Source: Spiroplasma syrphidicola EA-1 (GTDB lineage: Bacteria > Bacillota_I > Bacilli_A > Mycoplasmatales > Mycoplasmataceae). Taken from it: a DNA stretch of 64,000 nt. The translations under genes were made by a program, and so were the position numbers. Positions 48,146-52,174 of this stretch are shown in pieces. The stretch is taken from positions 434,001-498,000 of the forward strand of contig NC_021284.1 of the NCBI RefSeq assembly GCF_000400955.1, in the 5' to 3' direction. Position 1 is the stretch's first letter, and the number at the start of each line of letters is the position of its first letter. Below the pieces are notes generated by a model that saw nothing but the letters and a program-made list of their open reading frames with translations, was not told the origin of the DNA and did not search any database.

Positions 48146-48180
48146 AAAAATTCCATTTTATTAAAATGGAATTTTATTTT
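48146..48180 (+). terminator. kbl-tdh terminator
   Basis: AAAATTCCATTTTA / TAAAATGGAATTTT hairpin with T-rich tail. Confidence 0.9.
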
Positions 48181-48230
48181 GCAATTTTTAAATATTATAG
48201 TATCATAAATATACAACTAAATAAGTAAAG

Positions 48231-48446
48231 AAATAATTGATGTTCGGGAAAAGAGTTAAAATCTCTTGCTGTCCCAGCAACTGTGATGTGGATGAAAGTT
48301 ACAATAACCATTGAAGGAATCTTTGAGAAGGGTAGCTAGTAAAAAGAAACTAAGCCAGGAAACCGGTCATTTATTTCATTAGAATTATGTTATTCCTGGG
48401 GAATGAATTACAGAGTTATTTAAATTATTATTTAAATTATTTTTTA
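48231..48446 (+). promoter_or_regulatory. cobalamin (B12) riboswitch with putative terminator platform
   Basis: The aptamer (48231-48376) shows the family's conserved parts in order: GGGAAAAGAGTTAAAATCTC, then GCTGTCCCAGCAACTGTGA (the invariant core), CCATTG in place of CCACTG, GAGAAGG, and AAGCCAGGAAACCGGTC. The ends pair as P1 (AAATAATTGA with TCATTTATTT). A hairpin TTCATT / AATGAA (48375-48407), in the place of the kissing-loop arm, overlaps the P1 3' strand. ATTTAAAT-TATT-ATTTAAAT (48418-48437) followed by a T run could be the terminator. It controls nrdFIE; elsewhere such riboswitches turn genes off when adenosylcobalamin is bound. Confidence 0.9.
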
Positions 48447-48554
48447 GTTTTAATAATATCAATAGATAATTTCCAAAAATTTTCAGCATCCCTAATTTTA
48501 GCGGTTGCTTTTTTAGTTGTAGACAATTTAATAAAAAGTTAGAAAGGAGATCTT

Positions 48555-49574
48555 ATGGCAAAGAAAAAGATATATTATGATGAATCAGTTTCTCCTTTTG
48601 AATATTTTCAAAATGGGATGCACGGTAAAATGCGGTCAGTTAATTGAAATGTTATTAATGATGAGAAAGATTTAGAAGTATGAACACGAGTAACCCAAAA
48701 CTTTTGATTACCAGAAAAAATTCCAGTTTCAAATGATTTAACATCATGACATAGTTTAACTACAGAATGGCAACAATTAATTACTCGCACCTTTACCGGT
48801 TTAACCCTATTAGATACAATTCAAGCAACGGTTGGGGACCCGGCCCAAATTGCTAATTCCTTAACTGATCATGAACAAGTCATTTATACAAATTTTGCTT
48901 TTATGGTAGCTGTTCATGCACGATCATATGGGACAATTTTTTCAACTTTATGTTCAAGTGAACAAATTAATGAGGCTCATGAATGAGTTATTAATACTGA
49001 AAGTCTCCAAGAACGAGCTCGCATTTTGATTCCATACTATTTAGGGGATGACCCTTTAAAGTCAAAAGTAGCGGCCGCCTTAATGCCCGGATTTTTATTA
49101 TATGGTGGTTTTTACTTACCATTCTTTTTATCAGCGCGAGGAAAATTAAGTAATACTTCTGATATTATTCGCTTAATTTTACGCGATAAGGTAATTCATA
49201 ATTATTATAGTGGTTATAAGTATCAAAAAAAGATTGCTAAACTATCTACTAGTGAACAAAAAGAAATGCAAGATTTTGTTTTCAAATTATTATTTGAAAT
49301 TTTGGCTTTAGAAGAAAAATATTTAACAGAACTTTATGAAGGATTTGGATTAGTTGAGGATGCCATTTGTTTTAGTCGTTATAATGCTGGGAAGTTCTTA
49401 CAAAACTTAGGTTATGAATCACCCTTTACCTCAGAAGAAACTCGGATTGCGCCAGAAATTTTTACGCAACTGTCAGCTCGTGCTGATGAAAATCATGACT
49501 TCTTTTCTGGAAATGGTTCTTCATACATTATGGGTTTTACGGAAGAAACCGCTGATGAAGACTGAGAATTTTAA
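48555..49574 (+). CDS. nrdF: ribonucleotide reductase radical subunit NrdF, metal-free VPK type
   Basis: 339 residues. Beta subunit that generates the radical for reduction of ribonucleotides by NrdE. Of the six metal ligands of class Ib NrdF, Asp87, His121 and His215 remain, but the three glutamates are replaced: Val118 (FMVAVH), Pro178 (LMPGF) and Lys212 (RDKVIH). This Val/Pro/Lys set marks the class Ie subunits of Mollicutes, which carry a DOPA radical and no metal. The radical Tyr is Tyr125 (ARSYG). AGAAAGGAG precedes the ATG. First gene after the cobalamin riboswitch. Confidence 0.95.
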
Positions 49575-49575
49575 G

Positions 49576-50037
49576 ATGAAAAATAATTTAAAAATAAAAC
49601 AACCGCAAGGGGAACCTTATGTTGTTTATTTTTCATCGACATCAAATAATACCCATCGCTTTGTTGAAAAATTAAAAATAAATAATAGTCGGATTCCAAT
49701 TGACTTAACAACACCTTTGCTAGTTAACAAAGACTATATTTTAATTGTTCCAACTTATGCGGCTGGGGGAAATGATTGTACAGGTGCTGTACCAAAGCAA
49801 GTAATTAATTTTTTAAATACTAAAGAGAATCGCCAATATTGCTGTGGGGTTATCTCATCAGGCAATACAAACTTTGGTGATACTTATGCAATTGCGGGAC
49901 CGATTATTTCTAATAAACTTAAAGTACCTTTACTTTATCAATTTGAATTATTAGGAACAAAAACTGATGTACAAACAGTACAAAACATTTTAAAAAAATT
50001 ATGACAAGAAGGGGAGAAGTATGACAAAGAAATTTAA
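49576..50037 (+). CDS. nrdI: NrdI flavodoxin-like activator
   Basis: 153 residues. The flavoprotein that supplies the oxidant to activate NrdF. FMN-binding pattern: YFSSTSNNTHRFVEKL, VPTYAAGGN and SGNTNFGDTYAIAG. It begins two bases after the nrdF stop, and its last 17 bp overlap nrdE, implying coupled translation. One TGA at about 50002 near the end. In metal-free reductases NrdI is needed to make the DOPA radical. Confidence 0.95.
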
Positions 50038-52174
50038 ATTAAATGATAAAGACATTAATGAAGAATACATTACCTTAAATGCCAGAACAAAACTTTTTGA
50101 AAAAGGGAAAGATAATTTTAAATTTGATCAGTTAGCAGCAGAGTCATATTTAAAAAATGTAATTATTCCTAACAGTAAAATCTTTGAGACTGTAACTCAA
50201 CGAATTAATTATCTTGTAGATAATAACTATTATGATAAGGATTTAATTAATCAGTATTCGATTACTGCAATTGAAGAATTAACAAAATTAGCACAAAGCT
50301 TTAATCATCGTTTTCCAAGTTTAATGGGAGCCTTAAAATTTTATAACTTTTATGCTTTAAAAAGTTTTGATAGCAAAGAATACTTAGAGAGTTATGAAGA
50401 AAGAGTTATTATGAATGCTCTATTTTTTGGCAATGGCAATATTGAAACTGCTAAAAAAATATTAAAACAAATAATGCTTGGTCGTTTTCAACCAGCAACT
50501 CCAACTTTTTTGAATGCCGGTAAACAACAACGTGGTGAATATATTTCTTGTTATTTATTACGGATTGAAGACAATATGGAATCAATTGCTCGTGCTGTTA
50601 CTTCATCGCTGCAGCTTTCCAAAAAAGGGGGAGGAGTAGCGTTATGTTTAACTAACCTAAGAGAGTTTGGCGCCCCAATTAAAAACATTGTTAACCAAGC
50701 AACTGGTGTAATTCCAGTGATGAAAATTTTAGAGGATTGTTTTTCATATGCTAACCAATTAGGGCAACGCCAAGGAGCGGGAGCAGTTTATTTAAATGCT
50801 CACCATCCTGATATTATCTTATTTTTAGATACGAAAAGAGAAAATGCTGATGAAAAAATTCGCATTAAATCTTTATCGCTTGGTGTAATCATTCCGGATA
50901 TTACTTTTGAATTAGCTAAAAAAAATGAACAAATGGCTTTGTTTAGCCCCTATGATATTGAAAGAGAATATCATAAACCAATGAGTGATATTTCAATTAC
51001 AAAAGAATATTATAATTTATTAAATAATCCAAACATTAAAAAAACATTTATTAATCCCCGTAAATTATTTCAAATGATTGCGGAACTACACTTTGAGAGT
51101 GGTTATCCATATTTATTATTTGATGATACTGTTAATAATCGCAATGCTCATCCCGGCCGAATTGTAATGAGTAATCTTTGCAGTGAAATCGCGCAGGTAA
51201 GTACTGCTAGTGAATATAATTCTGATTTAAGTTTTCAAAAAATAGGGGATGATATTTGTTGTAATCTTGGCAGTTTAAACATCGCCAAGATGATGGAAAG
51301 TGGATCAGAGTTTGCAGAGACAGTTCAATTAGCTATTGAAGCCCTTGATCATGTTTCGCGAAAAAGTGATTTATCTTCCGCCCCATCAATTGCCCAAGGG
51401 AATAAAAAAAACCATGCCGTTGGTTTAGGTGCAATGAACTTACACGGTTTTTTGGCAACTAATCATTTGTTCTATCATTCCCCTGAAGCAGTAGACTTTA
51501 CCAATATCTTTTTCTATACGATAGCTTATTATGCTTTTAAAGCTTCCAATCAATTAGCTAAAAAATATGGATCTTTTGCTAACTTTGAAAATTCAAAGTT
51601 TGCTGATGGTAGTTATTTTGAAAAGTATACTGCTTGTGATGAAAAAAAATGAACACCACAAACCGAAAAAATAATTAATTTATTTAAACAATACGATATT
51701 AAAATTCCAACCCAACAAGATTGACTTGATTTAGTCGAAAAGATAAAAAGCAGGGGGTTAGCAAATTCCCATTTGTTAGCAGTTGCACCAACCGGCTCAA
51801 TTAGTTATCTTTCTTCATGTACACCTAGTTTGCAACCAGTTGTAGATGCAGTAGAAGTTCGAAAAGAAGGAAAATTAGGAAGAATTTATGTTCCTGCTTA
51901 TCAAATTAATTTTGATAACATGGAATATTATACTTTTGGCGCTTATGAATTAGGTCCAGATCCAATTATTGATATTGCTGCTGCTGCCCAACAACATGTA
52001 GATCAAGCAATTTCATTAACATTATTTATGACTGAGAAAGCAACTACTCGTGACTTAAATAAAGCTTATATTCGAGCTTTTACAAAAAGATGTGCATCAA
52101 TTTATTATGTTAGAATTCGCCAAGAAGTTTTAGCCGATAGTGAAAATTATCAATGTGATGCTTGTGTAATTTAA
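50021..52174 (+). CDS. nrdE: ribonucleotide reductase catalytic subunit NrdE
   Basis: 717 residues, full length for class Ib/Ie alpha. Active-site Cys are in ISCYLLRIEDNME and the second redox Cys in NLGSLNIAK-type context (CCNLGSLN, 51256-51285). NLCSEI holds the thiyl-radical Cys, and the C-terminal pair CDAC that exchanges electrons with a glutaredoxin-like NrdH or thioredoxin is present. PTGSISYL is conserved too. GAAGGGGAGAAG precedes the ATG. Two TGA at about 51650 and 51722. No nrdH is adjacent. A terminator follows. Confidence 0.96.

Follow-up and report, generated by a model that had tools for sequence, protein, structure and literature searches.

In the window, that is, the whole 64,000-nucleotide stretch of the Spiroplasma syrphidicola EA-1 genome analysed here (NC_021284.1, positions 434,001 to 498,000), an nrdFIE operon encoding a ribonucleotide reductase is preceded by a cobalamin riboswitch. 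The features of the locus, in window coordinates, are the following:

48221..48385, + strand, cobalamin (B12) riboswitch aptamer, RF00174 (cmscan 81.7 bits over the full model 1-189, cut-off 31.5)
48273..48277, + strand, loop L5 (CCCAG), proposed to kiss L13 and complementary to CUGGG in the P13 loop
48392..48404, + strand, hairpin P13, ATTCCTGGGGAAT, bearing loop L13; the 3' side of the hairpin is also the putative antiterminator 5' arm
48482..48492, + strand, putative antiterminator 3' arm and terminator 5' arm TTCAGCATCCC, pairing with GGGGAATGAA of P13
48485..48514, + strand, putative intrinsic terminator, a hairpin with TTTTTT after it (-8.0 kcal/mol, beating all 60 shuffles)
48543..48549, + strand, ribosome binding site AAAGGAG of nrdF, read from the sequence
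48555..49574, + strand, nrdF, predicted class Ie (VPK) R2 subunit, 339 aa under code 4
48906..48908, + strand, Val118 codon (Glu in class Ib), by alignment
48927..48929, + strand, Tyr125 codon, expected DOPA radical residue, aligned with the Tyr of M. florum R2e
49086..49088, + strand, Pro178 codon (Glu in class Ib), by alignment
49188..49190, + strand, Lys212 codon (Glu in class Ib), by alignment
49576..50037, + strand, nrdI, flavodoxin-like NrdF activator, 153 aa (TIGR00333, 178 bits, cut-off 74.65; PF07972)
50021..52174, + strand, nrdE, catalytic R1 subunit, 717 aa (TIGR04170, 972 bits)

The reading frame at 48555-49574 is open under genetic code 4 and is interrupted by six in-frame TGA codons under table 11, so that TGA has to be read as Trp. 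It is the only R2 gene of the S. syrphidicola genome, and its product scores above the cut-offs of both NF010572 and TIGR04171. A sequence search against solved structures matched NrdF to 6gp2, the class Ie R2 of Mesoplasma florum (E 7e-196), with 283 of 336 aligned residues identical (84%), and residue-by-residue alignment placed D87, V118, H121, Y125, P178, K212 and H215 of NrdF in the same columns of 6gp2. The first-pass annotation had proposed that Val118, Pro178 and Lys212 replace three metal-ligand glutamates while Asp87, His121 and His215 remain, as in the VPK (class Ie) type. Both parts of this proposal were confirmed by the alignment to M. florum NrdF, in which the V, P and K columns match, no intact Glu ligands are placed there and Tyr125 is retained too, and the substitutions also by an alignment of 121 NrdF sequences, in which 63 class Ib sequences read DEHYEEH at these positions, nine read DQHYSKH (QSK) and 49 read DVHYPKH. 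A set of 248 Mycoplasmatales genomes contains 88 full-length close homologues of this NrdF, and DVHYPKH is the signature of every one. A class Ib R2 (dimanganese NrdF) was ruled out, as Glu is absent at positions 118, 178 and 212 (DVHYPKH versus DEHYEEH).

The operon as a whole resembles the class Ie (VPK) systems of M. florum (6gp2/6gp3), Aerococcus urinae and Streptococcus pyogenes, with which it shares the same seven active-site positions and the gene order nrdFIE, with intact NrdI and NrdE encoded downstream of nrdF. The cysteine motifs of NrdE comprise Cys177, Cys387, Cys414, Cys712 and Cys715. The assignment of NrdF to the VPK class Ie type is thus supported by the alignment to solved structures, and metal-free DOPA chemistry would be expected of it from its homologues, for which a DOPA radical at the active-site Tyr has been described (PMC8902622, PMC7615503). 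The VPK type occurs mostly in Mycoplasmatales and Lactobacillales with the order nrdFIE (PMC11846895); by itself it is ordinary in Mollicutes and already published, and the regulatory link is the new part.

The genome holding the window is a single contig of 1,107,344 bases. Outside the window, about 308 kb from nrdFIE, a second reductase is encoded:

genome 791752-794283, - strand, nrdJ, class II reductase, 844 aa, intact

NrdJ scores above cut-off for both PRK08115 (1322 bits) and TIGR02504 (572 bits) and ends in a cysteine-rich tail. In the alignment, its residues C183, N467, C469, E471 and C480 have Cys, Asn and Glu counterparts in Thermotoga maritima NrdJ (1xje) that we take to be catalytic from what is known of the class II family. 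As judged from these signatures, NrdJ is an AdoCbl-dependent class II reductase. The gene ribA, encoding GTP cyclohydrolase II, lies immediately 3' of nrdJ (L007:6104-6703).

Three cobalamin aptamers were found in the genome, the second of which stands upstream of two genes adjoining nrdJ, one for a small protein and the other for a membrane protein. A profile search with this riboswitch-controlled membrane protein gave a single PDB match (6fnp, E 2.2e-7), which is the B12 transporter complex ECF-CbrT (PMC5997447); Pfam and NCBIfam held no named family for it or for its small partner, and a profile search of the partner against solved structures gave no assignment. An adenosyltransferase of the CobA type is present (145.7 bits), whereas the PduO type (PF01923) is absent from the S. 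syrphidicola genome. The common B12-binding domain was not found elsewhere in the genome, so that NrdJ may be the cell's sole B12 enzyme, although some B12 enzymes lack this domain. The third aptamer precedes genes for an ABC-2-like permease and a lipoprotein (L008:7578-9725; genome 1024577-1026724, - strand), possibly a further B12 uptake system, and similar permease/lipoprotein pairs occur at L229, L231 and L246.

The aptamer before nrdF has an intact core and B12 box and ends 169 nt ahead of the gene, a distance that ranges from 119 to 347 nt across 14 measured leaders. Its proposed L5-L13 contact varies among relatives: both sides are changed in a compensatory manner in G106 and G153 (ACCAG/CUGGU), and the outer pair is lost in G192 and G204, leaving A and C unpaired. 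In the P13 hairpin, ATTCCTGGG is invariant among nine aligned leaders. The duplex of TTCAGCATCCC with GGGGAATGAA has a calculated energy of -10.5 kcal/mol, and in most lineages the terminator 5' arm is complementary to the P13 3' side despite differing sequences, as exemplified by the pairs GGGAUG/CAUCCC, UGGUCA/UGACCA and UGGCUAAAA/UUUUAGCCA. P13 forms stronger duplexes with its own terminator arm than with swapped partners (eight lineages, permutation p 0.0005), the exceptions being G046 and G051 with weak antiterminator pairing.

The terminator hairpin of the window is bulged and was missed by a strict scan. When each of the 14 leaders was compared with 60 dinucleotide shuffles, 13 contained, in the stretch from the aptamer to the ribosome binding site, a hairpin plus U run that outperformed the shuffles (p 0.016 to 0.049). 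The terminator takes a comparable position in 12 leaders and lies elsewhere in G198, and G112 has none; these two S. eriocheiris-like leaders (347 nt in G112 and 319 nt in G198) have no clear terminator at the usual place. Most leaders thus end in a terminator, and covariation between its 5' arm and the hairpin of the kissing loop implies a B12-OFF transcription switch, for which two mutually exclusive structures are the simplest model. The identity of the ligand, the OFF direction and repression by B12 are all inferred, the last from homologues and from this RNA architecture.

The comparison covered the same 248 Mycoplasmatales genomes, with searches for the riboswitch and for the proteins NrdJ, NrdF and CobA. 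Of the 88 VPK genomes, 19 have NrdJ (15 intact, four broken), and the riboswitch stands before nrdF in 16 of these 19 and in one of the 69 without NrdJ (Fisher p 1e-13), or in 12 of 15 versus five of 73 if intact NrdJ alone is counted (p 1e-8), simple p values that overstate the association because the genomes are related. A divergent NrdJ-like match in G125 (38% identity) was left out of the NrdJ count. The exceptions are G076, G118 and G140, which have VPK NrdF and NrdJ with no riboswitch before nrdF, and G056, which has the riboswitch and in which NrdJ was not found. CobA accompanies intact NrdJ in 28 of 30 genomes. On the NrdF tree the presence of the riboswitch changed at least seven times, and a phylogenetic pair test found four well-supported independent pairs differing in NrdJ, of which about two agree with the association and none oppose it, too few for significance. 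The pattern over the 248 genomes fits a switch between two reductases, and together with the NrdJ, CobA and CbrT-like subunit of the genome it supports the first-pass suggestion that the cell alternates between a cobalamin-dependent and a metal-free enzyme according to B12 supply.

Four NrdJ-less sister species (G037, G057, G103 and G126) show sub-threshold aptamer matches just upstream of nrdF, with part of the core kept. These degenerate aptamers (L197-L200), cobalamin or AdoCbl-II-like with near-identical cores, stand in genomes without NrdJ or CobA and are read here as relics, or possibly as repurposed elements. In G009, G022, G028 and G034, nrdJ lies in broken pieces with stops and NrdF gave no match; ribonucleotide reduction may have been lost there altogether.

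From these sequence data, nrdFIE very probably serves as a class Ie, B12-independent backup to NrdJ under control of a B12-OFF riboswitch. When B12 is present, it would be imported via the CbrT-like ECF subunit and adenosylated by CobA, and NrdJ would make the deoxynucleotides; in the ligand-bound leader, P13 would be held in the L5-L13 kissing loop, so that the terminator could form and transcription would stop short of nrdF. Under B12 scarcity, the P13 3' side would pair with the terminator 5' arm, allowing read-through and synthesis of the metal-free enzyme, in which a DOPA radical on Tyr125, made with the help of NrdI, would replace the dimetal site. Such physiological switching would leave room for oxygen as a second reason for keeping NrdJ, since class II enzymes tolerate anoxia.

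The alternative that survives best, though it is unlikely, is that the riboswitch is a leftover no longer exerting control, with class Ie made constitutively and NrdJ kept for anoxic conditions. The ability of class II enzymes to function without oxygen (PMC11846895), the degenerate aptamers of NrdJ-less relatives and the weaker expression platforms of G112, G198, G046 and G051 would all accord with it; however, the window aptamer scores 81.7 bits with its core and B12 box intact, the antiterminator and terminator arms co-vary among lineages, and the aptamer has decayed where NrdJ is gone. A leader acting mainly at translation, or as an ON switch, is less probable again. It would explain why distances and terminators differ among species and why the long G112 and G198 leaders show no clear terminator at the usual site, but a terminator with a U run exceeds shuffles in nearly all leaders, and the B12 riboswitches of Streptomyces nrdABS and Propionibacterium acnes nrdAB are reported to control or lower transcription (PMC4991794, PMC3848588). 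It is hardly credible that NrdF works with metal in the ordinary way or is inactive: three Glu ligands have given way to other residues, just as in 6gp2 and in homologues whose metal-free activity has been proven, the VPK residues are kept in every close homologue, and a VPK enzyme is the sole reductase in 65 species (PMC11846895).

The proposed backup seems to have been lost in one relative. S. chrysopicola DF-1 (G132) encodes NrdJ at 97% identity, the only reductase found there, and NrdF was not found. Its synteny with the window breaks off at 48180, which is 40 bases short of the aptamer, and nearby an nrdE-like remnant of 69 bases (E 3e-9) persists (L247:1490-1558). The operon appears to have gone from this genome along with its riboswitch. 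With the NrdJ-less sisters, this provides a natural loss series in both directions.

B12-riboswitch logic on a B12-independent reductase is not new. PMC4991794, citing Borovok 2006, describes a B12 riboswitch on nrdABS (class Ia) beside NrdJ in Streptomyces coelicolor, and in P. acnes such riboswitches lie on nrdAB and nrdDG (PMC3848588). Both systems share with Spiroplasma a B12 riboswitch upstream of a B12-independent reductase in an NrdJ-bearing cell. The actinobacterial backups, however, are class I or III enzymes other than Ie, whereas that of Spiroplasma would be metal-free, and P. acnes carries genes for making cobalamin itself, whereas Spiroplasma appears to import B12. The nrdJ-cbrS-cbrT-pduO cluster of Lactobacillus delbrueckii (PMC5997447) is alike in placing NrdJ beside a CbrT-type subunit and in its adenosyltransferase, but the adenosyltransferase of Spiroplasma is of the CobA type and located elsewhere in the genome, and Spiroplasma has, besides NrdJ, a reductase operon with a B12 riboswitch in front of it. 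In the open-licence literature, which yields weak evidence of novelty, no report of B12-riboswitch control of class Ie or in Mollicutes was found, nor any paper on Spiroplasma B12 riboswitches or class II reductase; the class Ie papers checked for the word do not mention riboswitches. The arrangement suggests when metal-free reductases serve cells, as the leader RNA would name the condition, the absence of B12.

Related bacteria appear to place the same metal-free enzyme under another riboswitch. In Mesoplasma-type genomes, VPK nrdF is preceded by a 2dG-I (2'-deoxyguanosine) riboswitch (L098, L203, L204, L213 and L215). The Mesoplasma class Ie leaders that were checked carry 2dG-I instead of the cobalamin riboswitch of S. 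syrphidicola, and the Mesoplasma genomes with these leaders gave no NrdJ or CobA match, whereas both proteins are present in S. syrphidicola. The enzyme would answer to cobalamin in Spiroplasma and to 2'-deoxyguanosine in Mesoplasma.

Some spiroplasmas without a class I reductase carry a cobalamin riboswitch about 400 bases upstream of deoD, which is followed by a gene for a second deoxynucleoside kinase (PF01712) and then transketolase. The deoD-dNK riboswitch loci are:

L228, L232, L237, L239, L240 and L244 (and L242, L245)

Genomes with this riboswitch include G061, G174 and G201, which lack a class I reductase, and G094, G115 and G189, which gave no reductase match. Such leaders suggest that B12 scarcity turns on an alternative deoxynucleotide source, deoD-dNK salvage. 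On balance, we lean towards cobalamin being a general signal of deoxynucleotide supply in spiroplasmas, with B12 riboswitches placed on whichever B12-independent route was retained, class Ie or deoD with the kinase; if so, the role of the metal-free enzyme in spiroplasmas would be set by scarcity of B12 and not of metal. G144 and G195, with no reductase match, also have the deoD riboswitch, followed by less complete downstream genes.
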